NCBI GenBank assembly: GCA_030650495.1
Contig: JAUSEB010000447.1
Location: 1-41,967 of the forward strand
Origin: Armatimonadota bacterium
GTDB taxonomy: Bacteria > Armatimonadota > UBA5829 > JAUSEB01
Direction: 5' to 3'
DNA: 41,967 nucleotides
Below the pieces are notes generated by a model. It ran no database searches. It was not told the DNA's origin and saw only the letters and a list, made by a program, of their open reading frames with translations. Shown piece by piece: positions 16,308 to 32,292 of the stretch. Both the position numbers and the translations under genes were made by a program. The first letter of the stretch is position 1, and every line of letters begins with the position of its first letter.

Positions 16308-16416
16308 TTAGAAGTTAGAAGTTAGAAGTTAGAAGGGGGGGATTACTCCCTCTCCTTTTACAGGAGGGCTGGGGTGGGGTTTTATTCTAACTCCTAACTT
16401 CTAGCTTCTAACTTCT
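16308..16416. repeat. Inverted pair of TTAGAAG / TTCTAAC heptamer arrays
   Basis: Four TTAGAAG units (16308-16335) face TTCTAAC-type units (16385-16416). They enclose a CCCTCTCC...AGGAGGG hairpin, so the whole stretch can fold back on itself. Confidence 0.8.
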
Positions 16417-16483: not shown

Positions 16484-16879
16484 ATGCTTAATCCAAAACA
16501 GAGGCAGGCGGTACGGTTGCTTTTCGAGGCGCCGGAGGAGAAGGTCGCGGAAATGCTTGGGGTCAAGCTCGATACGCTGAGGCGCTGGAAGGGCAAGAGG
16601 GAGTTCATTGACGCAATGCAACTTGCGGCAACGGAGACCCGGCAATCGGCCACAAGGATTTTATCCAATGCGTTGGCCCATGCGGCGGAGAGGATTCACG
16701 AGATGGTTGCTATCGGTGCAGATACCCAGCCGTTGAAACCCGACGCGAAGGTTATGGTTGATATGCTCAAAGCGAGCGGCATGCTTGAAGCGGTGTTGAA
16801 CGACACCGGAGAAAGCGAGAGCCTGGCGAGCATATTGGCTCAATTGGCGCAAGAGGAGGACGAGCCTGATAGTGATTAG
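16484..16879 (+). CDS. Phage terminase small subunit (Mu-like head cassette)
   Basis: The small terminase subunit recognises phage DNA and recruits the large subunit. This 131-aa protein has an N-terminal helix-turn-helix (KVAEMLGVKLDTLRRWKGKREF, about residues 19-40), a helical middle and an acidic C-terminus (EEDEPDSD), as is usual for small terminases. Its ATG follows AAAGGAG. It overlaps the large subunit gene by 8 bp, so the two are translationally coupled. The identification rests mainly on that position and architecture. Confidence 0.75.
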   Translation: MLNPKQRQAVRLLFEAPEEKVAEMLGVKLDTLRRWKGKREFIDAMQLAATETRQSATRILSNALAHAAERIHEMVAIGADTQPLKPDAKVMVDMLKASGMLEAVLNDTGESESLASILAQLAQEEDEPDSD

Positions 16880-18185
16880 CTCGAAAAAGCGGCTAAAGCT
16901 GGCTAAGCGTCTGTTCGGATGGGAACCTCACCCGACGCAGCAACAGTGGCTGCTTGATGAGCATAAAGTCAAAGTGGCGTCGTGTGGTCGCAGGTGGGGC
17001 AAGACCGAGGCGCAGGCCGTGGACGCGGCGACGTTTGCCATTTGCAATCCGGGATCGAAGCAGATGATTGTCTCGCCGACCTACGACCAGTCCAGGCTGA
17101 TATTCGACACGGTTGAGCGATTGCTTCTGTCCACAAATTTGACTCGTAATAAGACTAAATGCGTGCGAACGCCATATCCAAGAATCCAAATCTGTAATAG
17201 TTCAATTATGGCGAGAACAGCTGATGAGGACGGCCGCAATTTGCGCGGACACTCCGCCGACCGTGTCATTGTTGACGAGGCCGCTTATGTGAGAGACGCG
17301 GTGATCGAGGAGGTTATTTCCCCAATGCTTGCGGATAGAAATGGGCAGTTGATTATGATCTCAACGCCGTTTGGCAAGAACCATTTCTACCGCGCATTTT
17401 CGCTTGGCCAGGGGGAGTCGAACCGCCATGCCGCGTTCAGGTTTCCGTCGTGGGAAAACCCGCACATCAGCAGGGATTACATCGAAGAACAGAGAGAATC
17501 GCTCAGCCGGAGGCAGTTCAGCGTGGAGTATGAGGCGGAGTTTTTGGACGATCAGAATTCTGTGTTCACGTGGCTGGATATCCAGTCAGCCGTCTGCGCC
17601 AGGCCGGTCGAGGGAATGCGAGAAGGCGCGTGGCGGGTCGCCGGGCTGGATTGGGCAAGATACGCGGACTACACGGCGGTTGTGATTGTGGACACATCAC
17701 AGTCGCCCCATGCGGTTATTGCCATTGACCGGTTCAACCAGCTTTCCTGGCAGGCGCAGGTGGAGCGCGTGGCGGAGCTTTTGCAGAAACATAAGGTTAA
17801 TGCCGTTTTGGCGGACCAGACCTCCATCGGCGATCCGCTTATCGAGCAGCTAAGGGAGGCGGTTTGGCAGAAGCGTGGTTTGAACGTGGATGTGCAGGGG
17901 TTGATGTTCACGAACACGAGCAAACGGGAGATCATAGACAATCTTGTCGTGAAGCTGGCGCATAGGGATTTGACTATTCCAAACGACGAGCAGTTGATCC
18001 GCGAGCTGCAATTCTTTGAATACGAGCTGACCGCCGCCGGGAACGTTCGCATGAATGCCCGAAGCGGATACACTGATGACCTGGTTGTGGCTCTTGCCCT
18101 TGCGGCTTCCGCTGCGCGGCAGTCCCCGTCGGAGGATAACCGGCTTTTGACCAGCGGCAACCGGAGAACGGGGGCCGGGTGGTAA
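16872..18185 (+). CDS. Phage terminase large subunit (ATPase-nuclease)
   Basis: DNA-packaging motor of 437 aa. The ATPase domain has Walker A CGRRWGKTEA (about 38-47) and Walker B VIVDEAAY (about 137-144), followed by the coupling motif STPFGKNHFY. The C-terminal RNase H-like nuclease shows AGLDWARYADYTAV (first aspartate), LADQTSIGD, and SGYTDDLVVALALA with the terminal aspartates. All key residues are present, so it appears intact. It starts at a GTG overlapping the terS end. Mu gp28-type terminases have this arrangement before a DUF935 portal, as here. Confidence 0.9.
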   Translation: MISSKKRLKLAKRLFGWEPHPTQQQWLLDEHKVKVASCGRRWGKTEAQAVDAATFAICNPGSKQMIVSPTYDQSRLIFDTVERLLLSTNLTRNKTKCVRTPYPRIQICNSSIMARTADEDGRNLRGHSADRVIVDEAAYVRDAVIEEVISPMLADRNGQLIMISTPFGKNHFYRAFSLGQGESNRHAAFRFPSWENPHISRDYIEEQRESLSRRQFSVEYEAEFLDDQNSVFTWLDIQSAVCARPVEGMREGAWRVAGLDWARYADYTAVVIVDTSQSPHAVIAIDRFNQLSWQAQVERVAELLQKHKVNAVLADQTSIGDPLIEQLREAVWQKRGLNVDVQGLMFTNTSKREIIDNLVVKLAHRDLTIPNDEQLIRELQFFEYELTAAGNVRMNARSGYTDDLVVALALAASAARQSPSEDNRLLTSGNRRTGAGW

Positions 18186-18389
18186 GCAAAGAGGTATCGG
18201 ACATGGATGTCCGATGGAATTTGGCCCCGGACATGGATATCCGGGGCTATCAAGTAACATCATTTTCGAGGTCTGGGAATTTGTCCCAGGCCATTTTTAT
18301 TATTCGGAAAAGCGGCGTCGAGCCGCCGCACTCCAAAGCTGTCGGCTGAAAGCTGACAGCTGACTGCTAACAAAAAAGGAGCGATGCAA
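18186..18389. other. Hairpin-rich spacer inside the phage cassette
   Basis: Contains a palindrome around CGGACATGGATGTCCG (18196-18215) and a related one around CCGGACATGGATATCCGG (18224-18247). A CTGGGA/TCCCAG hairpin (18273-18289) follows with a nearby T-run that may terminate terL transcripts, then a GCGGC/GCCGC hairpin. A GCTGTCG/GCTGACA heptamer array (18338-18365) ends it. The portal's AAGGAG follows. Confidence 0.65.
18338..18365. repeat. GCTGACA-type heptamer array
   Basis: GCTGTCG, GCTGAAA, GCTGACA, GCTGACT: the same family as at 1936 and 14006, here inside the phage cassette just upstream of the portal gene. Confidence 0.75.
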
Positions 18390-19607
18390 ATGATTCTTGA
18401 GAAGGTTCGCCGGGCGGCGATGTTCGCCCGGAACCGGGGTCGGCCTGAGACCCGTGAGACGCTGGCGGCGCGGAGTTCGGCGCTATCGTCGCTGTCGAGC
18501 ATGGGGCCGTATAACCCGGATGAGCTGATTACGCGCAAAGGCTACGCCGTGTATGACCAAATGCAGACCGACGCTCAGGTCGCGGCGTGCCTGAACGTGA
18601 AGAAGTTCGCCGTGCTGTCGCGGGGGTGGGCGGTCCATCCTGTTTCGGACTCGCCGGAGGACATTGAGGCGGCTGATTTCATTCGTTTTTGCCTGACCGA
18701 TATGCGCGGGTCGGTACTCGATGCGCTCTACAAATCGCTGGACGCGGTCGCCAAAGGGTTCTCTATCTGCGAGATAAACTACAAGGTTATTGACTATGGT
18801 CCCCATGCGGGCAAGATCGGCCTGGCGTCCATCAAGGCTAAGGACCCTTCGACCCTCGGCTTCCAAGTAGATGAGTATCTGAACGTCACGGGGATTACGC
18901 AGCAGTGGTTGGCGGACTCATCAGGGGCGCTGCCGCCGGACAAGTTCGTGGTCTACGCCTACATGCCTAAGTATGAAAGCCCTTATGGCCAGTCGGATTT
19001 GCGCGCGGCCTACAAGCACTGGTGGAGCAAAGACGCGATTTTGCGTTTCTACAATACTTACCTTGAGAAGTTCGGCTCGCCGACGGCCAAAGGCACGTAT
19101 CGCAAAGGAACCACCAAGCAGCAGCAGGACGACTTGCTGCGGGTTTTGGACAAAATCCAGCAAGAGACGGCGATAGTCCTTCCAGAGGATGTGACGGTCG
19201 AATTGCTCGAAGCGCAGCGCGGGGGCGAGGCCGGTTATCTGAACGCGCTTGAGTATCACGACAAGCAGATAGCAAAGGCGATAATCGGCCAGACACTGGC
19301 CGTGGACGAGGGGCCGAGGACGGGTTCTTACGCCCAGGCGAAGGTCCACATGGAAGTCATGCGGTTCCATCTTGAGAAGCTCAAGCGGGATTTGGAGGAG
19401 TCGGTCGTTGGGGAGCAAATTATCCGCAGGTTGATTGACTACAACTTCCAGCATGGCCGCTGTCCGAGGTTCAGTCTTGGGCCGTTGGAGGATAGGGATT
19501 TGGAATCGCTTGGCTCTCTGGTGTCGCAGATGATTGACGGCAAAGTGGTGGCCCCGAACGAGACGTGGATACGCGAGTATTTGGGCCTGCCCGGGGATGA
19601 GCGATGA
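18390..19607 (+). CDS. Phage portal protein, DUF935 (Mu gp29-like)
   Basis: Forms the dodecameric ring at one capsid vertex through which DNA enters and to which a tail normally attaches. The 405-aa protein matches the DUF935 pattern. Features are RGWAVHPVSDSPEDIEAADF near 75, a central SPYGQSDLRAAYKHWWSKDAI, the FGSPTAKGTY stretch, and GQTLAVDEGPRTGSYAQAKVH near 300. I start it at the ATG at 18390, which sits 8 bases after AAGGAG; an ATG at 18384 is too close. The last codons (GDER, stop) are written in the heptamer array at 19596, which may have changed its C-terminus. Confidence 0.87.
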   Translation: MILEKVRRAAMFARNRGRPETRETLAARSSALSSLSSMGPYNPDELITRKGYAVYDQMQTDAQVAACLNVKKFAVLSRGWAVHPVSDSPEDIEAADFIRFCLTDMRGSVLDALYKSLDAVAKGFSICEINYKVIDYGPHAGKIGLASIKAKDPSTLGFQVDEYLNVTGITQQWLADSSGALPPDKFVVYAYMPKYESPYGQSDLRAAYKHWWSKDAILRFYNTYLEKFGSPTAKGTYRKGTTKQQQDDLLRVLDKIQQETAIVLPEDVTVELLEAQRGGEAGYLNALEYHDKQIAKAIIGQTLAVDEGPRTGSYAQAKVHMEVMRFHLEKLKRDLEESVVGEQIIRRLIDYNFQHGRCPRFSLGPLEDRDLESLGSLVSQMIDGKVVAPNETWIREYLGLPGDER

Positions 19608-19637
19608 GCGATGAGCGATGAGTAACGAGTGATGAGT
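19596..19637. repeat. GATGAGC heptamer array overlapping the portal 3' end
   Basis: GATGAGC three times, then GATGAGT, AACGAGT, GATGAGT. The first units encode the portal's last residues and its stop codon. Confidence 0.85.
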
Positions 19638-19776
19638 GGGGAACGCCCGAAACAGAACTATGCGATTTCAAATCGCGGATTCTCTTTCGGGCGCGATGAC
19701 ATATCGCCCCGATCGGAGATGAGTGATGAGGCCCCGGACATGGATCTCCGGGGCCATCAAATCGGAGGAGGCATGG
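19638..19776. other. Structured spacer before the protease gene
   Basis: CGCCCGAAA pairs with TTTCGGGCG around an inner GCGATTT/AAATCGC stem (about 19643-19698), giving a nested hairpin. At 19731-19754 lies a third copy of the CGGACATGGAT-centred palindrome (GCCCCGGACATGGATCTCC..). Confidence 0.65.
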
Positions 19777-20637
19777 ATGAAGCAAATGCAAGTTTCAGAC
19801 ACGGCGGATGGCGTGGTGGAGCGGGACGCGCTGCTTTTCCGCGCGGGGTCATATCCTGACAAGGACATAGAAATCACGGAAGACGACCTCGACCGGATGG
19901 TCGAGAGCTTTACTCCCGCGCCGATCAAGGTGGAGCACACGGACACTCCGCTTCGATTTGGGATCGTGGCGAAGATATGGCGCGTCGGCAAGGAGTTGTT
20001 CGGCAAGCTGGCTTTCAATCCGCTTGCGTGGGCTTTGGCCCGTGAGTGCGGCGCGACCAAGCTGTCGGTGGCGGTTCGCAGGGACAAATCAGGCTTGCAG
20101 GAAGTCAGCCTGGTGCGCTCGCCGAGGATAGCGGACGCCGCCGTTTTCAGCGGCGAAGCGGAGTATTTCGCGGGAGCGGACCTGGATCAAGAAACGACAC
20201 AAGAGGGAGGTGAGACGATGGACAAACAGACACAGCCGGAAGTTAAGGAAGGAGAACAAACGGCGGAATTCGCGTCGGAGCGGGTAGCGGCGTTGCAAAA
20301 AGAACTGCGGGCAAAGGACGTGGACGCGAAGATCGAGTCGCTGAAGCGGCAGGGTAAGCTTGCGCCCGCGGCTGAAGCTTTCGCTCGTTCGCTGCTTATG
20401 GCCGAAGACGGGCAAGTGGTCACATTCGCCGACCCAGCCACAGGAACGGAGACCAGCGAGGCGGTTGCGAAGACTTTCGAGTCATTCCTGGAGGCGCAGC
20501 CGAAAGTCATCGAATTTTCGGAGTTGACGCCGGGCGGCGGCCAAGAACGCCGGACCGAGTTCTCCACCGAGGAGGAGCGGCTATTCGGCAAACTCGGCGT
20601 CAGCGCCGAGACTGTTACAAAACACAAAAGTAGATAA
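19777..20637 (+). CDS. Mu gpI-like head maturation protease/scaffold
   Basis: A 286-aa protein in the position of the Mu I gene: an N-terminal protease that trims capsid proteins and a C-terminal scaffold region. Residues about 1-140 (DTADGVVERDALLFRAG, IEITEDDLDRMVESF, PIKVEHTDT, GATKLSVAVRRDKSGLQEVSLVRSPRI) match the prohead-protease pattern. The part from about 150 is charged and helical (RVAALQKELRAKDVDAKIESLKRQGK), like a scaffold. The ATG at 19777 follows GGAGGAGG by 5 bases. A strong internal start at 20218 would make the scaffold separately. Confidence 0.78.
   Translation: MKQMQVSDTADGVVERDALLFRAGSYPDKDIEITEDDLDRMVESFTPAPIKVEHTDTPLRFGIVAKIWRVGKELFGKLAFNPLAWALARECGATKLSVAVRRDKSGLQEVSLVRSPRIADAAVFSGEAEYFAGADLDQETTQEGGETMDKQTQPEVKEGEQTAEFASERVAALQKELRAKDVDAKIESLKRQGKLAPAAEAFARSLLMAEDGQVVTFADPATGTETSEAVAKTFESFLEAQPKVIEFSELTPGGGQERRTEFSTEEERLFGKLGVSAETVTKHKSR
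20218..20637 (+). CDS. Nested scaffold protein from internal start (Mu Z-like)
   Basis: In-frame internal ATG (MDKQTQPEVKEGEQ) preceded by GGGAGG with a 7-base gap, as good a ribosome-binding site as any in the cassette. It would make a 139-aa helical scaffold identical to the C-terminal half of the protease. Mu Z within I and lambda Nu3 within C are known precedents. Expression is inferred from the ribosome-binding site alone. Confidence 0.5.
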   Translation: MDKQTQPEVKEGEQTAEFASERVAALQKELRAKDVDAKIESLKRQGKLAPAAEAFARSLLMAEDGQVVTFADPATGTETSEAVAKTFESFLEAQPKVIEFSELTPGGGQERRTEFSTEEERLFGKLGVSAETVTKHKSR

Positions 20638-20648
20638 AGGAGCGGAAA

Positions 20649-21065
20649 ATGACGGCAACTACAACAGCAAGAGAAGCAAAACGCAAGGATGGAGAGTTGA
20701 TCTCCTACAAAATGAGCAATGTCCTAATTCCCAAGGGCGCGCTCGTAAATATCAACGCCGCCGGTTATGCGACGAATGCGACCGACGCATCGGGCGAGAC
20801 ATTCGCCGGTGTGGCCTATGAGACCGTGGACAACGCGGACGGTTCCGCTGGAGACAAAGAGATTCGTGTCCTGACCGGCGGCAGCTTCGTATTCGTGGAC
20901 GGCGGTGGAAATGGCGCCATTACGGATGTCGGCGTTCAGTTCAATATCGTGGACAACCAGACGGTCACCGACGCCGCGACCACGAACAACGTCAAAGCAG
21001 GTGTGTGCGTGGAGTCCATTGACGCCAACGCCGCGCGAATTCGCATCGATCGATTTGCTAGTTAA
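20649..21065 (+). CDS. DUF2190 family protein, probable capsid decoration protein
   Basis: A 138-aa protein rich in Gly, Ala, Val and Asp with beta-strand character (NVLIPKGALVNINAAGYATN, GETFAGVAYETVDNADGSAG, VRVLTGG-type strands). It has the pattern of DUF2190 proteins encoded between protease/scaffold and major capsid genes in many phages. Such proteins are thought to stabilise the outside of the head. It starts 11 bp after the protease gene with AAAGGAG, so the two are co-translated. Function is inferred from family and gene order. Confidence 0.75.
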   Translation: MTATTTAREAKRKDGELISYKMSNVLIPKGALVNINAAGYATNATDASGETFAGVAYETVDNADGSAGDKEIRVLTGGSFVFVDGGGNGAITDVGVQFNIVDNQTVTDAATTNNVKAGVCVESIDANAARIRIDRFAS

Positions 21066-21242
21066 TGGAAAGTGTTAAGCACGAAATCACGAAAATTCAG
21101 AAAGCACGAAAAGAGATGGGAAGTGGCTAGTATTTCACTAGCCACCAGTCATCAGCCACTAATCACCTCGTTTTCTTTTCGTGTTTTCTCCCTTTCGTGC
21201 TTTCGTGATTCAAAAACATCACAGATTAAGGAGAATGAAAAA
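21066..21242. repeat. Composite fold-back of CACGAAA and GTGGCTA heptamers
   Basis: CACGAAA-type repeats on the left (about 21077-21112) face TTTCGTG-type repeats on the right (about 21178-21210). At the centre GTGGCTAGT pairs with ACTAGCCAC (21123-21145, loop ATTTC). The whole spacer can fold into one imperfect stem, and an AAGGAG for the capsid gene follows. Confidence 0.75.
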
Positions 21243-22166
21243 ATGCCGCTTGTGAAATCAGATATACCGAACCTGCTTGAAGCGGGATTGAAGGCTGTAT
21301 TCTTTGAGGAATATGACCGGGTTTTGTCCGACTGGGAGAGGATTGCAACCGTGGTTCCCTCCACAGCCGACACCGAAGACTACGCATGGCTCGGCAGCGC
21401 GCCCGCGATGAGAGAGTTTAAGGATGAGCGACTGCCGTCCGGCCTTCTTGAGCACGGTTATTCCATCAAGAACAAAACCTGGGAGTCGTCAATCGCAGTA
21501 GATCGCGCCGCCCTGGAAGACGAGCGATATGGGCAGATCAAGCTCCGAATTCAGAGCCTTGGCCGGGAAGCCAGACGACATCAGGATGAGATGATCTTCA
21601 CTCTGATTAAGAATGGCTTCAGCACAACCTGCTATGACGGCCAGAGCTTCTTCGACACCGACCATTCCGAGGGCGATAGCGGGACACAGTCCAACAAGGG
21701 CACGTCTGCCCTTTCAGCGACATCCCTGCAGTCGGCAATTTCGGCAATGGCGAAGTTCAAAGACGACAAAGGCAAGCCGATTGGGATAATCCCTGACCTG
21801 CTCGTTGTGCCGCCGGATCTTCAGTGGACGGCCATGGAGCTTTTGAACTCTGCGTACTATCCTGATCTGGTCAGCCAGACCGGCGGGACAGGCGGAACCC
21901 AGAAGCTGGCGGCGAATGTGCTCAAGGGTAGGCTCGACCTGCTTGTCTCGCCTTACCTGACCGACAGCAACGACTGGTTCATGCTTTGCACGAAAGGCCC
22001 CGTCAAGCCCATCATATTCCAGTCCCGTGTGCCGGTTGAGTTCGCCGCGTTGGAAGGCAATTCCGAGAACGGCTTTATGCGCGATCAGTACCTCTACGGC
22101 GTTCGCGCGAGATACAATGTGGGCTTCGGCCTCTGGCAGATGGCCTACGGAAGCCAGGCGAGTTAG
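21243..22166 (+). CDS. Major capsid protein, Mu gpT-like
   Basis: The main shell subunit, 307 aa, close to the Mu T protein length. Landmarks are an N-terminal helix (VFFEEYDRVLSDWERIATVVPSTADTEDYAWLGS), LEHGYSIKNKTWESSIAVDRAALEDERYGQI, FDTDHSEGDSGTQSN, and the C-terminal ALEGNSENGFMRDQYLYGVRARYNVGFG, all typical of the Mu-like head subunit family. The frame is open for 57 codons further upstream, but that part is the repeat element. The ATG at 21243 has AAGGAG 9 bases upstream, so I take it as the start. It appears intact. Confidence 0.88.
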   Translation: MPLVKSDIPNLLEAGLKAVFFEEYDRVLSDWERIATVVPSTADTEDYAWLGSAPAMREFKDERLPSGLLEHGYSIKNKTWESSIAVDRAALEDERYGQIKLRIQSLGREARRHQDEMIFTLIKNGFSTTCYDGQSFFDTDHSEGDSGTQSNKGTSALSATSLQSAISAMAKFKDDKGKPIGIIPDLLVVPPDLQWTAMELLNSAYYPDLVSQTGGTGGTQKLAANVLKGRLDLLVSPYLTDSNDWFMLCTKGPVKPIIFQSRVPVEFAALEGNSENGFMRDQYLYGVRARYNVGFGLWQMAYGSQAS

Positions 22167-22210
22167 TTTGGGATTCGGAAATCCCCACCCAGTATGGTGA
22201 ACCCCCGGTA

Positions 22211-22261
22211 GTCCCCCCTTCGTAAGGGGGACGGTTTACTCCCCTCCTTACGAAGGAGGGG
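22211..22261. repeat. Pair of CCCCCTT/AAGGGGG palindromes (REP-like)
   Basis: Hairpins at 22211-22232 (GTCCCCCC..GGGGGAC) and 22241-22261 (CCCCTCCTT-acg-AAGGAGGGG, perfect). Degenerate relatives occur near 3732-3765 and 16341-16365. These resemble dispersed G/C-run palindromes known in many genomes. Confidence 0.7.
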
Positions 22262-22331
22262 TTGGGGGAGGTTTTCGGGCGTCCTGATAATAATCGGGGC
22301 GCCCGGTTTGTCTTTGAGAGGAGAACTCGAT

Positions 22332-22505
22332 ATGGCTGTTGTGAGAACGCAAAGGCCTGATGGGGTCTTTACTGATTTGCAGATGGATGAATATGGACGG
22401 CTCAAGGTGGATTTCGCGATCAAAGCCGGGGTTGCGTCGCCGTCCGTCGGACATGACTTCAAATGCGCGGAAACCGGCGATCTACTTGTAGCGGTGGAGG
22501 GCTGA
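22332..22505 (+). CDS. Small phage protein sharing its N-terminus with the next gene
   Basis: A 57-aa protein (MAVVRTQRPDGVFTDLQMDE...). Its first 26 or so residues align with the start of the next gene (MTILRAQKPDGTIGDVQMDA), in the pattern R-Q-PDG-D-QMD-GRL-V. This suggests a duplicated N-terminal attachment module with or without cargo. The ATG follows GAGAGGAG, and a GGCG hairpin precedes it. The function is unknown; its position after the capsid gene suggests a particle component. Confidence 0.6.
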   Translation: MAVVRTQRPDGVFTDLQMDEYGRLKVDFAIKAGVASPSVGHDFKCAETGDLLVAVEG

Positions 22506-22508
22506 GAG

Positions 22509-23549
22509 ATGACAATTCTGAGAGCGCAGAAACCTGATGGAACAATCGGTGATGTTCAGATGGACGCTGAAGGGCGTCTATTGGTGAATGACGGACTGAG
22601 CGTTCCTCAAGGAATACTCGACTATCCGCACTGCGGGACGCCAAAGACATACTGGAGTGAAACCGGAGCGGAGAAGGCGATACTCTATCTCGGCGCCGGA
22701 AATAGCGGCGTTGTGCGGACATTATGGTTTACGGCCGATATGGGAAATCCGGGCGGCTGCGATTGGACCCAATTGGCCGCGGATAACGCTCGCCTGAAAA
22801 TCTGGACTGGGTTGGGGACGCTGGCTGACCCTGAGGCTTTGCCGGAGGCGGCGCCGGATGTGGATATTCCCTTGGCAACTATCCTCGGCGGGCATTATGA
22901 CCCGGTTGGGCCGACTGGATTGGCTACGCGGTTATTCGACGCCGCCGGTCTTGCTGATCCCGGCGGCCTGCAGTATTCGTACATGCTGCAATTAAATGTG
23001 CCGATTCCATTTGAGAACGGCGTTTTGGCGCAGATCACTTCAACCGACACTTATGGATTCCATTTGCCGGGTTATCGCTGGGCGGCTTATGAACTGGGAG
23101 CTTTGCCGAGTTGGCGATATAAAGATTGGCGGCTTAGGTCAGCGAGTTTTTCAGGGGCGGCAACAACAGGCCAACAAAAGACACTTATGAGTGTGGCTGA
23201 TGGGCCGGGGATGATTTGCGGACTGTGGGTCTCGGCCAGCAATAGCGGTGGCAATCTCGTGTTCGCCGAAGGCAATTGGCAATTCAAGACGGATGGGTCT
23301 GAAACCGTCAACTGGGAAACTTCCGGTATGGAGGATATATTCGGCGCGGAATTCTATGGATTTGCGCCTGGGGTTAAGGCGACGCCTTATTGGGGTTTGA
23401 CCTACAAGGCGAGCGCCGCTTATGAAGCGTATCGCATTTTCACCCGCGATCCGATCATCTGGAGCGACGGGATTGTCGGATTGTGGCAGGCTCCGGCGTT
23501 CGGCGGAACGTTGACGCTTGATACGCTGTATCTGTATTACGCGCCATAA
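22509..23549 (+). CDS. Probable virion protein with DUF2961/GH172-like jelly-roll fold
   Basis: A 346-aa protein between the capsid and connector genes. Residues 1-30 repeat the N-terminus of the preceding small protein. From about 155 the pattern resembles DUF2961 (glycoside hydrolase 172): LNVPIPFENGVLAQI (163-176), AEGNWQFKTDG (253-263), and SGMEDIFGAEFYG (272-284) in place of the family's GTEDYFG...G. DUF2961 proteins are double jelly-rolls that assemble into trimers, a fold shared with viral capsid proteins. It could be a head fibre, decoration or glycan-binding spike. Assignment is by motif pattern only and is distant. Confidence 0.55.
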   Translation: MTILRAQKPDGTIGDVQMDAEGRLLVNDGLSVPQGILDYPHCGTPKTYWSETGAEKAILYLGAGNSGVVRTLWFTADMGNPGGCDWTQLAADNARLKIWTGLGTLADPEALPEAAPDVDIPLATILGGHYDPVGPTGLATRLFDAAGLADPGGLQYSYMLQLNVPIPFENGVLAQITSTDTYGFHLPGYRWAAYELGALPSWRYKDWRLRSASFSGAATTGQQKTLMSVADGPGMICGLWVSASNSGGNLVFAEGNWQFKTDGSETVNWETSGMEDIFGAEFYGFAPGVKATPYWGLTYKASAAYEAYRIFTRDPIIWSDGIVGLWQAPAFGGTLTLDTLYLYYAP

Positions 23550-23559
23550 GGAGGCGATT

Positions 23560-23991
23560 GTGGCTATAACAATAGTTAAGGCGGATGTAAAACGCAAGCT
23601 AATGATCCCGTCATCAGACACGTCTTATGACACTTCGATAGACAGCCTGATTTCGGAGACGCAGCCTGCGCTTGAATACGGGATTGAGCCGTCGTATTTG
23701 GCGGATACGGGAAACGCGGGACTTCAGGCGACCCTGAAGCTTGGGATTCTGGAAGTCATCAGCGGAGAGTTCCTGGAACAACTGTTCCGGGAAGCAGGCT
23801 CTACTGAGGAGTTCTCCATAGCCGGACTAACGTTCGGAGAGCGAAACCAGCGTGGCGCGGATCTGATACAGCAGGGATCAGAGCGGCTGGCGCCGTACGC
23901 CAAAACCCAGGCGGAGGCGGCGGTCGAAACCCAGATCGCGAGCACGACTCTTGACTCCGACCGGACTCTCGCCGACTGCTCGACTTGGTAA
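23560..23991 (+). CDS. Phage head-tail connector-like protein
   Basis: A 143-aa mostly helical protein (ITIVKADVKRKLMIPSSDTS, then SLISETQPALEYGI, LKLGILEVISGEFLEQLFRE, GADLIQQGSERLAPYAK). Size, helical pattern and position just after the head genes fit gp6-like or Mu gp36-like head-completion proteins, which form a ring under the portal. It starts at a GTG with AAGGAGG 5 bases upstream. The longer frame from 23518 overlaps the previous gene without a ribosome site and I reject it. Confidence 0.6.
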   Translation: MAITIVKADVKRKLMIPSSDTSYDTSIDSLISETQPALEYGIEPSYLADTGNAGLQATLKLGILEVISGEFLEQLFREAGSTEEFSIAGLTFGERNQRGADLIQQGSERLAPYAKTQAEAAVETQIASTTLDSDRTLADCSTW

Positions 23992-24005
23992 GGAGGCTGC
24001 TGGAA

Positions 24006-24308
24006 ATGCTGTTAAAGAAACGATTCGACGAGAAACTGGCGGCTTTTGGGGAGGACTATTTGCTCAACGGCACAACTCCCTACAAAGGATTCTTCCAGCA
24101 GCTCGACAGTGGTCGAATGAGCATTTACCTCGACGACACTGAGCGCGCTATGCTGACTAGACCGGCGTTGTTCTTAGCCACTTCAGCCGATGCCGTCATA
24201 GCCCAGGGTAACACGATTGCTCGTGACGGCAGGACATACTCGGTCTTGAAAATGTCCATCCAGAGAGTCGCGGGCGCCGCTGTCGCTAAGATTGTAATTC
24301 TTGCATGA
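24006..24308 (+). CDS. Head-tail adaptor/joining-like protein
   Basis: A 100-aa protein. The C-terminal half (RPALFLATSADAVIAQGNTI, ARDGRTYSVLKMSIQRVAGA) resembles the beta-barrel of lambda FII-like head-tail joining proteins, with a G-x-T-I-x-R-x-G-R-T-Y strand. The ATG at 24006 has AGGAGG 9 bases upstream, directly after the connector's stop. In ordinary phages such a protein is followed by tail completion and tail tube genes, but here lysis-type membrane genes follow instead. Confidence 0.6.
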   Translation: MLLKKRFDEKLAAFGEDYLLNGTTPYKGFFQQLDSGRMSIYLDDTERAMLTRPALFLATSADAVIAQGNTIARDGRTYSVLKMSIQRVAGAAVAKIVILA

Positions 24309-24329
24309 CGGATTGCTGGAGGCTCGGAT

Positions 24330-24575
24330 ATGAAGCGACATGACGTGGAGGCGCAAGACGGTCCAGTGATAGCTAAACTGGCGGCGATAGAAACCAAGCT
24401 GGAAACGGCGCTCGCCGAACTATCCATTATCCGCGAGCAAGTGCCTGCAAAGATCGTCGAGCACACTGAACGGATAACGGTCTTGGAACGCGGACTGCGA
24501 GGCATGCAATGGGTGGCCGGCGTGTTCGCCGTCGCGATAATCGGAGCCTTTATCGGCCACATATTCGGGAGGTAA
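24330..24575 (+). CDS. XhlA-like coiled-coil protein with C-terminal membrane anchor
   Basis: An 81-aa protein: a coiled coil (AKLAAIETKLETALAELSII, then VEHTERITVLERGLRGMQW) followed by one transmembrane helix (VAGVFAVAIIGAFIGHIFG). This is the layout of XhlA/holin-accessory proteins that act with holins in phage lysis. The ATG has GGAGG upstream. It lies in a run of three small genes with almost no spacing. Confidence 0.6.
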   Translation: MKRHDVEAQDGPVIAKLAAIETKLETALAELSIIREQVPAKIVEHTERITVLERGLRGMQWVAGVFAVAIIGAFIGHIFGR

Positions 24576-24580
24576 TAGAC

Positions 24581-24778
24581 ATGAGTTGGTTGAGTAAATG
24601 GTGGCGCGGCGGCGGTCGGGAGGTCGTCAGGGACGGCCTTCTCCAAGCCGCCGATGAGCGTTTGAAGAAAGAGATAGTGAAGAAGCTCCGGCTTCTTCTC
24701 GCGACTCTGGACAAACTGGATATTTCGGGAGTCAGAGGCAAACTGACTGAGATAATCGAATACGTGGAGGCCCAATAG
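24581..24778 (+). CDS. Small amphipathic helical protein of the phage cassette
   Basis: A 65-aa protein with a Trp-rich N-terminus (MSWLSKWWRGGGREVV) and a basic amphipathic helix (ADERLKKEIVKKLRLLLATL). I do not recognise it. The ATG follows GGGAGG, and its stop codon immediately precedes the next start. The Trp/Lys-rich N-terminus could bind membranes, which would suit a lysis cassette, but this is inference. Confidence 0.55.
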   Translation: MSWLSKWWRGGGREVVRDGLLQAADERLKKEIVKKLRLLLATLDKLDISGVRGKLTEIIEYVEAQ

Positions 24779-25051
24779 ATGAACGATCTATTCACATGGG
24801 AATCGCTGCTGACACTGGCTGGGGCTGGAGCGGCAACGCGCTACATAGTCGCGCTGGCGCGTGAGGTCTTTCAGATTCGCGGACGAGCAAGCCATTTGGC
24901 CGCGTTTATGGTCGCGGAGATCGTCACCATCGGCGCCGGTCTTGCCACCGGAGCGCAGTCAGCGACCGAGATCACACTACTCGCCCTAAACGGCTTCCTC
25001 GTGGCGGGATTTGCGATTGGGCTGAATGAGAACCTGAAAGCGCAGGGGTAG
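24779..25051 (+). CDS. Holin-like small membrane protein
   Basis: A 90-aa protein with about three hydrophobic segments (residues about 10-27, 39-58 and 64-84), including HLAAFMVAEIVTIGAGLATG and EITLLALNGFLVAGFAIGLNE. Size, topology and position after the XhlA-like protein suggest a holin. It abuts the previous stop with no spacing. No endolysin gene follows, and the next coding region is an unrelated toxin-antitoxin pair, so this is the last gene of the cassette. Confidence 0.6.
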   Translation: MNDLFTWESLLTLAGAGAATRYIVALAREVFQIRGRASHLAAFMVAEIVTIGAGLATGAQSATEITLLALNGFLVAGFAIGLNENLKAQG

Positions 25052-25249: not shown

Positions 25250-25298
25250 AACTAACCATGTACTGACTCCGGTAACCGGAGTCAGTACATGGTTAGTT
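25250..25298. repeat. 49-bp near-perfect palindrome (24-bp arms)
   Basis: Two 24-bp arms, exact reverse complements, are separated by a single A. The outer ends are AACTAACCATG and CATGGTTAGTT, and the centre is CCGGTAACCGG. It lies about 50 bp upstream of the Panacea antitoxin gene. Confidence 0.9.
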
Positions 25299-25349
25299 GG
25301 GTAAATCTACCCTAGTTCTTTTGATGAGACACTGAAAGAGGTGAGGGAC

Positions 25350-25787
25350 ATGCTGAAAGCCAAAGATGTTGCGGAATACTTCTTAGCTGCTGTAGATGAT
25401 AATGCTGGCGAAGGAATAACGAACCTAAAACTGCAAAAACTTGTCTATTATGCCCAGGGCGTCTATCTTGCGGCTTATGGGGAACTACTGTTCTCGGAGC
25501 CTATTGAGGCTTGGGCGCACGGTCCGGTCGTGCCATCTCTGTACCATGATTACAAGAAATATGGAACCCGCGCGATTCCCCGGCCAACTCAATTAGACCT
25601 CAGCAGATTCAGTGCCGAAGTGCAGCAAGTGCTCGATGAAGTTTACAATGTGTTTGGTCAATTTTCTGCGTGGAAATTGCGCAACATGACACACGAGGAA
25701 TCGCCCTGGAAGGATACGCCGCCGAATTGTGTCATATCCGAGGAGTCACTACTCAAGTATTTCAAGAAGATAGTCCGCCATGGTTAA
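25350..25787 (+). CDS. Panacea (SocA-like, DUF4065) antitoxin
   Basis: A 145-aa protein with the Panacea-domain pattern: AKDVAEYFL, then ITNLKLQKLVYYAQGVYLA, EPIEAWAHGPVVPSLYHDYKKYG, and a C-terminal SAWKLRNMTHEESPWKDT. Panacea antitoxins are known to neutralise very different toxins, and SocA is the founding example. I use the ATG at 25350, 8 bases after AGAGG; a GTG at 25341 is too close to that site. The next gene overlaps it by 8 bp, the usual antitoxin-toxin coupling. Confidence 0.85.
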   Translation: MLKAKDVAEYFLAAVDDNAGEGITNLKLQKLVYYAQGVYLAAYGELLFSEPIEAWAHGPVVPSLYHDYKKYGTRAIPRPTQLDLSRFSAEVQQVLDEVYNVFGQFSAWKLRNMTHEESPWKDTPPNCVISEESLLKYFKKIVRHG

Positions 25788-26193
25788 GATTAACCCATCT
25801 GCGGTGAAGGCTAACAAGGGGCAAAGGGTGCAGCCCACGGAGCATGGTGCGGCTATCAACTACAAGAAGTCGCCGCCCGTTTTCTCGCTTTCTCAGGTGA
25901 GAAAAAGCCATTGCATCACAAATTGCGAGCAGCGGGAAAAATCCGATTTTGCTGAAATGCTCAGAAAGCTGAGTCAGTGCATATGGCACGATTTAGAAAA
26001 CTCCAATTATCATGGCATTGGTTGCGAACGAATTAAGCGGCTAAAGGTAAAACGCCCTGAAGATCTCTCCGACGATACAATATTTATTGCCTTCCGCTTT
26101 TCGGGCATGAAGCCTATGGTAGGGCATAGAGAGAATGATGTTTTCCACATTCTTTGGTTCGACCGAGAATTCAATGTCTATGATCATGGCTAA
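25780..26193 (+). CDS. Putative toxin partner of the Panacea antitoxin
   Basis: A 137-aa protein of no domain I can name. It has a basic, probably flexible N-terminus, then a folded part with LRKLSQCIWHDL, DDTIFIAFRFSGMKPMVGHR and a terminal FHILWFDREFNVYDHG. It starts inside the antitoxin gene (8-bp overlap, different frame) and has no ribosome site of its own, so it depends on coupling. Position makes it the toxin. The conserved-looking F-H-I-L-W-F-D ending may help find relatives. Confidence 0.6.
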   Translation: MVKINPSAVKANKGQRVQPTEHGAAINYKKSPPVFSLSQVRKSHCITNCEQREKSDFAEMLRKLSQCIWHDLENSNYHGIGCERIKRLKVKRPEDLSDDTIFIAFRFSGMKPMVGHRENDVFHILWFDREFNVYDHG

Positions 26194-26218: not shown

Positions 26219-27367
26219 CTACGCCACCTTACGCGCCTCGAACTTCGGCCTGTAGTCGGCGCATTTGTATGATTTGGAGTCCTCTTTTGGAGTCTCCGCT
26301 TCGGATAAATATACGTATTCTTCCGTGACGCCGCAGCGTTGATACATCTGGTCGTATTTGCCACAGTCCAGGCAGCGGCGCAGCACACTCCAGCATACGC
26401 CGCATTTCAGGCTTCCGATCAGTTCTATCCTGCCGCAGAGCGGGCAGTGGACATAGACTTCCTTAAAACCGTGGTCGCTCTTCTGCAAGGCTATCCGCAC
26501 CATTTGGCCATATTTGTCCAAACTGGTCGCAAGTCCCGTGAGTGTACTCAGCAGATGGTTCATCTGGACCGCCGACAGGTAGTCCACCAGCCTCTCATCG
26601 AGCAGATCGTTCATCATCGTCGCGGCGCGCTCCATCGAATTGAGGTGGAGATCGGCGGTTTTCGCTTTGAAGGGTTTTTTGCGCTCCGCTTGCTTCCTCG
26701 TGTGCCGGAGTATCTCCTCGGTCACGTTCAGCGGAACTCTTAGAAACGCCTCTTTCTTCTCAGGAACATCGGATATCGCCTGCAGTAATTTGTTGGTTTC
26801 GTCTATCGAAAGCCCTTCGGCCTTGATTTTCTGCACGATGCGGATTTGTATGCCAAGGTCGCCGTTCAAACCGCGCAGAATCCGCGCATGTCCTTCCGTA
26901 AATGACCCATCGCCGGATCCGTCTCTTGCTATAAGCTCCTTCTGGATCGACTCAGGGAGGTCAAGCAATTCCAGAAATCTCCTTACCGTACTCTCGCTCA
27001 CTCCAAGTGTGCGGCAGCACTTCTCCCAACTCATGAAACTCAGTAGATCGCGGATGGCTTTAGCTTTCTCGATAGGATTGAGGTCTTCCCGCTGGAAGTT
27101 CTCCAATAGCGCGTCGGTTTTGGCGTCTTCGTCGCTCAATTCCTTTACGATGGCCGGAATTTGCTTGAGCCCGGCCAAAATACACGCCCTGTAACGGCGC
27201 TCGCCCATGACTATCTCATATTTACCGTTATTGGGGCGCACGACGATAGGTTCAAGCACTCCGCGTTCACTTATGGATTGGGCCAGTTCTTTTAAGCTAT
27301 CCTCGTAGAAAGTCTTGCGGGGCTGTCCCGTGGTTGCTACTATACAATCCAGATCGAGCAGTTGCAT
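26219..27367 (-). CDS. ParB-family protein with C-terminal zinc-ribbon-like domain
   Basis: A 382-aa DNA-binding protein. The N-terminal ParB/Srx CTP-binding domain has the GERRYRA box at 55-61 and LLENFQREDLNPIEKA. The helix-turn-helix domain follows (LSFMSWEKCCRTLGVSESTVRRFLELLDL). The tail has cysteine pairs CPLC (308/311), CGVC (322/325) and CLDC (332/335), plus Cys345 and Cys369, which look zinc-binding. ParB normally ends in a dimerisation helix, so this tail is unusual. The ATG has AAGGAG upstream. No parA is adjacent and none is in the window. A Noc-like or plasmid/phage-derived role is possible. Confidence 0.82.
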   Translation of the reverse strand: MQLLDLDCIVATTGQPRKTFYEDSLKELAQSISERGVLEPIVVRPNNGKYEIVMGERRYRACILAGLKQIPAIVKELSDEDAKTDALLENFQREDLNPIEKAKAIRDLLSFMSWEKCCRTLGVSESTVRRFLELLDLPESIQKELIARDGSGDGSFTEGHARILRGLNGDLGIQIRIVQKIKAEGLSIDETNKLLQAISDVPEKKEAFLRVPLNVTEEILRHTRKQAERKKPFKAKTADLHLNSMERAATMMNDLLDERLVDYLSAVQMNHLLSTLTGLATSLDKYGQMVRIALQKSDHGFKEVYVHCPLCGRIELIGSLKCGVCWSVLRRCLDCGKYDQMYQRCGVTEEYVYLSEAETPKEDSKSYKCADYRPKFEARKVA

Positions 27368-30119: not shown

Positions 30120-32189
30120 CTAGAACTGGCTATAGTCATATATCACTGTCCAAGTCCGCGAGCCTGCCGGAACAATGCCGCTTCCGGCGCAAGGGGCATC
30201 GGTCCATGATTTGGTGTAGCCGAGAGGGTCCATCGTCTGTGTGCCGGGCAGAACACCGCCCGCGTAAGGGTCGTTGAAACTGCTGATCCTTGGACTTATA
30301 GAAATGCCGGCGCCCGGATCCTCGAATATGTACTTAACCGGATACGCGCCGTCCCGGCTAAAGGTAATGTATCTATTCTCGCCTGCCAATCCAGTCAAGG
30401 CGTCATTTGCCCCTTCAAATTCCAGTGTTGTGCCCTGCACAGTGGGCGTATAACCCGGATCTAGAATTGTCTTTACCCCCAGTTTGGGATTTTCCAGCTT
30501 TGTTGGAGAGATGATCGACTTGATGCCCCTTGGAAATGGCTCCGACGCGGCGAGATCCACCTCAGCTTCTTCAGCGGTCCTGCGGACTTTGCTTCCCAGC
30601 GCGGCGCCGATGAAATCAAACCGCACATCACTGCCGGAGTCGACCTTTCCCCAGGTTTTTATCCTGTCGGAGTCTCGGTAAATCACAAAGTACTCGGAGA
30701 CCCGCCTAAGATTGTTCCAAGCCCCAGGTTCATAGCTGGACAGCAGGTAGTTCTTCTTCAGAAGCTTTGTCTGAACGGGTCCCGCTCCAATGAGGACATA
30801 TCTGCTTGCGGACCCGCCATTGGTCCGCAGCAGCACACAATTCGTTCCTTTGCGGAGTGATATTATGGGAATGTTCCAGGTGGACCATCCCTCGGTGGGC
30901 AGCGAGTCTGAGGAGACACTCGTTTGGCCGGAGCCCCCGTATCTGGCGGAAGCGGGGAAGAATGTGGCAATCAGAGACCATGATGGTCCGGGACTTACCA
31001 CCTGGTGAATGTAGAGCTTCATCTGAATATATTCATCCGTCCTCACGCTAACAGCGTCATTCCAATTGAAAATAATGCCGACAATGCTTTCTGATGAGCC
31101 GTCCCATCCACATCTGACCGCATTCGCTATATTTGGTGTTCCCGTCCCGAAATCGGATGATTCAGCCGTGCTGTCCCACCCAACCATTTGACCAGTCTTC
31201 CCAATTATCTGAATGGCCGGATACTTGTCGCCAACGGGTCTAAACGGGTAAAGTATGTGCCTGTGCATGAAGACCAACTGCTCAGTGTTTTTGTTCAATA
31301 AAAGCGGGAAAGCGTCTCCTCCCGATGTCCCGGACATAGCCGTTTGCTCGTCCTTAAAATAACAGACTTTATCAAGTAACGTGATACATGATGAAGCTCC
31401 CGCAAGCTCCGGGTTAGGATTGTCCTGGTACACTCCCTTATACTGATTATATGCTGTTGTATATGGCTCCCAGTCAATGCAATGCGCGCACTGGCCTTCT
31501 ACTACCGTCTGGCTGTCCATCGCCCAGGTCGTGGCGCCGAAGCCGGACTCGACGAGAACTCCAACACGACCGTTCGTAATATGGGTATACTCGCCCGTAT
31601 TATCATGCAGATCCGTGAACGGGTATTTTTCCACCCTGATTCCCTGTCCCGTTGTCCGGCTTTTCGAGATAATGTCGCGCAGGTGGAGTCCGTCCACCGT
31701 GTCAGCGTCAAGACCTTTTGTGTGGCCGGTCTTTAATACCTCGTTTGGGAGCTTACTGTCGAGATCTAAAGGCAGGATTGTTGATGGAGTCGGCAAGACT
31801 GATACTTTGAACCCGCCTGCTCTCTCGGCGTTCATAGCGTATGGGACTGAGGTCAATTTGGCGCGAGGCATGAGCGTCTGCCCGCCGATTTCGATCTGCA
31901 GCCAATATTGCTTGTCGAACGGCAAATTTATAGGCGCCGCATTGCCAAGGATGACATTGATCCAGCCGCCGATTACGTTTACTGAAATATCCTCCGACCA
32001 CAACTGAGAGCCGCCTGTCTCGGTGTCGAATATCCGGAAGGTGGTGGAATGAATCCCATCCGGAACCGGTTGGCCGGAAGCATTTAGAAGCTGTCCCTGG
32101 TAGCTCAACGTGGCGGGAGTTGAAAGACTCGCCGAAACCGGCGCGAGTGTGATCAAGAAAATTATAATAGGAGCCGCAACTCGGATCAT
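30120..32189 (-). CDS. Large secreted protein with N-terminal tail-fibre/adhesin-like module
   Basis: A 689-aa exported protein. It starts with a signal peptide (MIRVAAPIIIFLITLAPVSA), followed by a module seen in many surface proteins: LSYQGQLLNASGQPVPDG, TFRIFDTETGGSQLWSE, a WLQIEIGGQ strand and LTSVPYAMNAERAGG. The rest is beta-rich with several cysteines (CAHC, SSC, KVC) and no fold I can name. I chose the ATG at 32189 because GGAGG precedes it by 10 bases; a TTG 27 bases upstream adds nothing like a signal peptide. It is probably a surface or extracellular structural or binding protein. Confidence 0.7.
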   Translation of the reverse strand: MIRVAAPIIIFLITLAPVSASLSTPATLSYQGQLLNASGQPVPDGIHSTTFRIFDTETGGSQLWSEDISVNVIGGWINVILGNAAPINLPFDKQYWLQIEIGGQTLMPRAKLTSVPYAMNAERAGGFKVSVLPTPSTILPLDLDSKLPNEVLKTGHTKGLDADTVDGLHLRDIISKSRTTGQGIRVEKYPFTDLHDNTGEYTHITNGRVGVLVESGFGATTWAMDSQTVVEGQCAHCIDWEPYTTAYNQYKGVYQDNPNPELAGASSCITLLDKVCYFKDEQTAMSGTSGGDAFPLLLNKNTEQLVFMHRHILYPFRPVGDKYPAIQIIGKTGQMVGWDSTAESSDFGTGTPNIANAVRCGWDGSSESIVGIIFNWNDAVSVRTDEYIQMKLYIHQVVSPGPSWSLIATFFPASARYGGSGQTSVSSDSLPTEGWSTWNIPIISLRKGTNCVLLRTNGGSASRYVLIGAGPVQTKLLKKNYLLSSYEPGAWNNLRRVSEYFVIYRDSDRIKTWGKVDSGSDVRFDFIGAALGSKVRRTAEEAEVDLAASEPFPRGIKSIISPTKLENPKLGVKTILDPGYTPTVQGTTLEFEGANDALTGLAGENRYITFSRDGAYPVKYIFEDPGAGISISPRISSFNDPYAGGVLPGTQTMDPLGYTKSWTDAPCAGSGIVPAGSRTWTVIYDYSQF

Positions 32190-32292
32190 CAGCGCTGTCC
32201 CTCCGCTTACTCTCAAATAAGTAGTTCTATCTTCGTAAATACCATAATGCTAAGTTAAACGTCAATGAAATTATGGCAGGATTCTCACAGTT

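Follow-up and report, generated by a model that had tools for sequence, protein, structure and literature searches.

To our knowledge, gene transfer agents (GTAs) are known from few lineages, and the known ones are tailed. Capsid-forming phage-inducible chromosomal islands (cf-PICIs) encode their own heads and packaging functions and have no tail; they are mobile, bear an integrase and depend on a helper. The adaptor and the stopper of a phage head normally receive a tail. The parts of a GTA can be encoded apart, as the tail genes of Brachyspira and the spikes, fibres and lysis genes of RcGTA lie outside the main clusters (PMC6209664). RcGTA also has sugar-binding head spikes, and its DNA needs comEC and comF in the recipient (PMC6209664). 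In the literature that we searched, mostly open-access papers, neither searches for GTAs together with Armatimonadota nor searches for Armatimonadetes prophages yielded a description of such a system.

We analysed a stretch of 41,967 nucleotides (the window), which is an entire contig (G000:C245) of a 3.59-Mb assembly in 464 contigs. The nearest named relatives were Armatimonadota MAGs, and a gpT 87% identical to that of the window was found in JAUSGG010000227.1. At positions 16484-25051, the window carries on a single strand a block of packaging and head genes followed by three small genes (Table 1). Every frame of the block is open, and the gene order and coordinates given by the first-pass annotation proved correct. 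We consider it most probable (roughly 0.7) that these genes form a phage head module which has been domesticated (a viriform), is vertically inherited, is the host's own and acts like a gene transfer agent.

Table 1. Features of the head gene block and its 3' neighbours, with positions in the window.
Feature	Position	Strand	Basis or remark
terS, small terminase subunit (DNA recognition)	16484..16879	+	PHROG 7344, E 4e-10; homologue 5' of terL in relatives
terL, packaging ATPase/nuclease	16872..18185	+	PHROG 2, E 2e-47; PF03237
Mu/DUF935-type portal	18384..19607	+	PF06074, E 1e-74
Head maturation protease/scaffold	19723..20637	+	PHROG 976, E 3e-14
Capsid cement/decoration protein	20649..21065	+	PHROG 1731, E 2e-22; PF09956 below cut-off
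gpT-type major capsid protein	21243..22166	+	PF10124, E 4e-80; start set by homologues
57-aa ORF, missed by the first-pass annotation	22332..22505	+	resembles N terminus of next protein; homologue in G001
Variable slot protein, here DUF2961 (GH172-type) homologue	22509..23549	+	PF11175, E 6e-12
Probable head-tail adaptor (connector)	23563..23991	+	mainly position; no family match of its own
Stopper (lambda gpFII / SPP1 gp16 type)	24006..24308	+	structure model and Foldseek
Small protein with C-terminal membrane segment	24330..24575	+	PHROG 1193 (hemolysin), E 0.014; conserved in 11 loci
Small conserved protein, no evident membrane segment	24581..24778	+	49% identical homologue in G001
Small membrane protein	24779..25051	+	hydrophobic sequence; 69% identical homologue in G001
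Panacea/SocA-type antitoxin	25341..25787	+	PF13274, E 2e-23; membership in block uncertain
Putative Panacea toxin partner	25780..26193	+	overlapping gene pair, no family match; membership uncertain
ParB-like protein	26219..27367	-	PF02195, PF17762; membership uncertain

The block is preceded by genes for an HTH/WYL-like regulator and an alcohol dehydrogenase and followed by the Panacea-type pair, ParB, MBL, ComEC and metabolic genes. Housekeeping genes lie on both sides, and the contig runs 17 kb further past the block through such genes, so that the missing tail is not due to an assembly break. Family searches recognised no integrase, transposase, tail or endolysin gene in the window, in agreement with the earlier claim for tail and integration genes, and no att-like direct repeats flanking the block were found when these were sought. 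A Mu-like prophage has modules for the tail, for integration or transposition and for replication linked to its head genes, and the window contained none of these. Neither an assembly break or a tail elsewhere in the same element, nor relatives in which the block is the left half of a Mu-like phage, the two outcomes that the first-pass annotation had named as contradicting its view, was encountered. The block is not a prophage nor half of one.

Degenerate repeats or palindromes lie between cassette genes at 16308-16416, 18193-18253, 19730-19760 and 22200-22273, where phage operons pack tightly instead, and the space that separates the antitoxin gene from the last small gene holds, at 25250-25298, a perfect inverted repeat (24-bp arms, 1-bp centre). 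The ParB-like gene was found beside the cassette in G000 (the window's genome) and G001 (L025), which cover both sampled genera of the family, and was 81-82% identical. A different ParB (about 39%) lies near the cassette in G005 (L026 7760-8500); these ParB-like genes may encode a regulator or may only share the position. The last small gene of G001 is followed by a pair (L025 3160-3818) that is HicB/HicA-like by eye and had no Pfam match at 0.01; toxin-antitoxin modules adjoining the head genes are possibly exchangeable, being Panacea-type in the window and HicB/HicA-like in G001. ComEC and MBL lie two to three genes 3' of the block in the window. The approximately 18 kb beyond ParB in G001 contained no window gene past ParB, so that synteny does not support a link to competence.

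The gpT ORF was called from 21072, whereas homologues open at 21243, and the first 57 residues of the call are intergenic sequence. The gpT profile matched solved gpT-domain capsid structures. The adaptor is conserved in 33 loci and gave weak matches to PF05135 and PF24829 in one relative each, while a search of the PDB with its profile found no chain. The model of the stopper (pLDDT 96) matched several phage stopper/neck chains in Foldseek (probability 0.97-1.0, E 0.009-0.05) and resembled those of T1, R4C, SPP1 and lambda, a likeness which suggests that the ancestor was a tailed phage, probably siphophage-like.

By the Nei-Gojobori method, the dN/dS values of usable pairs of related genomes mostly fell in the range 0.02-0.13 for five genes (terL, portal, protease, cement and gpT), and terL copies located at unlinked sites were among them. 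The adaptor had about 0.08-0.13, and the stopper and the small proteins were looser (mostly 0.1-0.3). Because dS was near or above 1 in several pairs, single values are rough; pairs with dS of 0.35-0.8 agreed with the others. The Walker A lysine, the Walker B glutamate and the RNase H-like acidic residues of TerL were conserved, essentially invariant, in 31 homologues, which confirmed the earlier claim of an intact terminase, and H72 and S115 of the protease were essentially invariant in 33 homologues. These rates and catalytic residues indicate that the head genes are under strong purifying selection, which keeps the head and packaging genes functional. Internal stops were found in gpT of G010 (G010:C26, L037) and in gpT and portal of G027 (G027:C2, L029), possibly as real losses or as sequencing errors; broken frames in some genomes imply that the module can be lost.

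Among 101 relatives, 45 had the gpT gene, nearly always once. Over the phylum, it was present in 119 of the 291 Armatimonadota genomes sampled (63 of 156 genera), again nearly always in one copy. Within the window's class, 25 of the 28 sampled genomes contained the head set as one chromosomal copy. The distribution of terL and portal was largely that of gpT, both genes being essentially single in relatives; the portal was also single in the window's own genome, and each relative genome had one main copy of terL. A second terL, 63-74% identical, was observed in G001 away from the main cassette (G001:C139:973-2328, L236).

When the window's proteins were used as the reference, the identity of gpT was correlated across 33 genomes with that of the housekeeping enzyme QueA, whose gene also lies in the window (Spearman 0.91). 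It was likewise correlated with the identity of terL (0.84) and of the portal (0.89). Within the order, gpT was somewhat more conserved than QueA. The gpT clades largely track host families, and several species pairs have common flanks (e.g. L043/L118). The single copies in the class and the correlation of gpT with QueA show a host-chromosomal, vertically inherited set of genes, as in a GTA. A separate gpT clade with distant portal and cement genes was seen in Phycisphaerae (L122, L124-L130, L132), which could be another conserved chromosomal head system.

The head genes are dispersed in many relatives. In families f5, f8 and f16, terL, often together with the portal gene, lies amid unrelated genes at another chromosomal place than the capsid genes. 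The genes for gpT and terL are on separate contigs in G068 (C3 and C6, respectively) and G026 (C4 and C2, respectively), and they are 27-79 kb apart in G038, G064 and G074. In four genomes of genus g3, terL and portal are separated by a gene for an aquaporin (the member tested matched PF00230 with 4e-57), and only protease, cement and gpT are together at the locus in a Fimbriimonadales group (L090-L102). With no integration or replication genes in the window and with terL and portal unlinked from gpT in several families, the set gives no indication of self-propagation and is not a travelling unit. The single-copy vertical inheritance, the purifying selection and this dispersal all strongly support the earlier proposal of a GTA-like or domesticated particle that is not an ordinary prophage.

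The three small proteins that end the block had been described as membrane or lysis-type, which did not hold for the middle one, as it lacks an obvious membrane segment. The first is possibly XhlA/holin-like and the third is a possible holin, both assignments being tentative. The claim that endolysin genes are missing was true of the window and untrue of same-order and same-class relatives, in which cell-wall hydrolase genes come right after the stopper/holin-like genes (Amidase_3 in f2, M15 in f5 and G007, and M23 in f3). No hydrolase was recognised after the head genes in the window and G001, and the window has only the putative holin-like genes. Small membrane proteins and cell-wall hydrolases are the recurring neighbours of the head genes, which suggests a release by lysis.

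A variable slot lies between the capsid and adaptor genes. The 57-aa ORF is a possible short decoration protein. Comparison of the protein encoded after it with GH172/DUF2961 enzymes (PMC8605356) showed that it retains the pair of catalytic Glu, at a spacing of 21 residues, and the Asp that follows, whereas the two substrate-contacting Trp are not conserved and the slot protein carries a short N-terminal segment common to other slot proteins. AlphaFold prediction from the single sequence gave a pLDDT of 34 and was not used; phmmer against the PDB returned nothing, and no relative was found among 50,697 phage records. The slot protein of G001 (1005 aa) has only the first ~23-30 residues in common with the DUF2961 protein, the rest being unrelated, that of G037 (L039 970-3300) has a CBM96 and an alpha/beta-hydrolase domain, and short proteins fill the slot in other relatives. 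A short common N terminus joined to exchangeable, often carbohydrate-related bodies would fit a protein of the head surface. The protein hyp30 (30120-32216) resembles the G001 slot protein only weakly (24%; E 1e-4, calculated for one comparison).

We searched 22 bearer genomes for five tail families, namely tape measure (PF10145), sheath (PF04984), hub (PF13550), Dit (PF05709) and tail tube (PF06199). The positive controls were detected, and the five families had no match in 17-22 of the 22 bearers and none in the window's genome. Matches above the cut-off were restricted to G002, G004, G010 and G014, while G001 had one match below it; tape measure and sheath mostly adjoin each other in those genomes, which points to separate prophage-type loci. 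No recurrent long gene other than those described was seen beside the head genes at the loci that we read. Tail genes for DNA delivery, as a GTA has them, were thus not found for the five families tested, and families outside these may exist.

The strongest rival is a conventional tailed GTA whose tail genes are located elsewhere on the chromosome and have diverged beyond what the searched families can match. The adaptor and stopper are kept and normally receive a tail, so that a diverged tail elsewhere is possible, and the head genes are themselves dispersed. Precedents for parts encoded off the main clusters are the tail genes in Brachyspira and, in RcGTA, the genes for spikes, fibres and lysis (PMC6209664). 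The five families left unmatched while the controls worked, and the lack of a recurrent long gene, weigh against it, and we regard such a tailed agent as a serious possibility with the odds somewhat against it. The borrowing of parts from a helper, also raised by the first-pass annotation, could still apply to a tail, although in most bearers no tail gene from the five families was recognised.

If the block is a domesticated head module, TerS and TerL would fill portal-bearing gpT capsids with DNA, which would probably be host DNA because genes so dispersed cannot travel together as a single genome. Maturation of the head would fall to the protease, the adaptor and stopper would seal the DNA inside, and the holin-like proteins, with cell-wall hydrolases that are encoded beside the head genes in relatives and not in the window, would release the particles by lysis. 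More tentatively, a sugar-active slot protein on the particle surface might bind or trim the surface glycan of sister cells, and the DNA might enter through an unrecognised or borrowed tail, or by competence uptake without injection. By analogy with RcGTA, whose DNA requires comEC and comF in the recipient, entry by competence is thinkable for a tailless particle. On this reading, the system most likely works like a GTA with a stripped-down particle. A more specific version, in which the agent is tailless, stopper-sealed DNA heads bind sister cells by the exchangeable sugar-active protein, the DNA is taken up by competence, and the system was already present in the ancestor of much of the phylum before it became scattered or reduced, seems doubtful to us.

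A phage head could also have become a DNA-free or cargo-holding compartment similar to an encapsulin. The Fimbriimonadales locus of protease, cement and gpT only also fits a plain compartment, and counts against a domesticated DNA-packaging head. The lack of a tail likewise agrees with a compartment. However, the class keeps terS, the nuclease residues of terL, the portal, the adaptor and the stopper, the strongly constrained terL and portal are needless for a compartment, and wall hydrolases adjoin the head genes in relatives; we therefore find a compartment improbable.

A phage satellite with its own heads and a helper's tails, like the cf-PICIs, had been proposed as well and would account for a head-only content with connectors; true prophage-type loci co-reside in G002, G004, G010 and G014. 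The block is nevertheless without integrase or flanking att-like repeats, its genes follow the host lineage, and one copy across the class, a divergence that tracks QueA and unlinked loci are hardly possible for a mobile satellite. Most bearers, including the window's genome, have no recognisable phage tail, and the probability of a satellite is very low.

The viral contigs in which the portal had an identity of 54% or more were tailless head fragments of 4-8 kb that match the host element in kind, and IMG/VR lists such fragments as viral genomes (L022, L023, L143, L147 and L246). L144, L034 and L249 resemble genuine loci of phages or prophages, sharing gpT at 46-64% and having a different or distant terL and portal; the downstream genes of L144 and L034, which were read as contrasts, were mostly unrecognised. 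The gpT of L144, an apparent phage contig, falls inside the class clade, which implies that capsids were exchanged with phages at least once. No complete phage carrying the full head set was found. A prophage in decay, or an ordinary Mu-like phage of which the block is the left half, would explain the phage-type genes, the intergenic repeats and the few broken frames in relatives, but is the least credible reading given the strong purifying selection, the conserved catalytic residues, the lack of a following tail in every chromosomal relative of the class that we read and the tailless nature of those viral contigs.

If this reading is right, the head module would be one more case of domestication, independent of the others and from another type of phage, that selection maintains across a deep and mostly uncultured phylum. 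It would allow three questions to be tested, namely whether gene exchange is what such particles are kept for, whether they need a tail and whether a DNA-packaging machine can still be built from scattered gene sets. It also calls for caution with virus catalogues, in which fragments of a host element have been entered as viral contigs.

Among the known systems, encapsulins have an HK97-fold shell without motor or portal, whereas terL, portal, adaptor and stopper are present here and constrained. The cf-PICIs are alike in having their own heads and packaging without a tail, but the integrase, att sites, mobility and helper dependence of those islands were not seen here, where the pattern is single-copy and vertical. 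Mu-like siphophages likewise have a gpT-domain capsid, a DUF935-family portal (32-33% identity between the window portal and those of Bacillus/Geobacillus phages) and a lambda/SPP1-type stopper; they are complete, with tail and lysis genes, while the Armatimonadota keep the head alone, with its genes scattered in many relatives. Compared with GTAs as characterized in PMC6209664, the block agrees in inheritance, constraint and non-propagation and differs in the tail as tested. It also differs from GTAs in its gpT capsid and DUF935-type portal, in having no recognised tail genes and in belonging to a phylum for which the literature searched describes no GTA. The likeness to agents of the RcGTA type extends to head and packaging genes that are encoded by the host, passed on vertically and held under purifying selection, the absence of integration and replication genes and the encoding of some parts off the main cluster. 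It may also include genes of the holin/endolysin type, which are putative holin-like genes in the window and wall hydrolase genes in relatives, and the sugar-binding head spikes of RcGTA are an analogue for the slot protein. These bacteria probably make their own DNA-filled, GTA-like shells.
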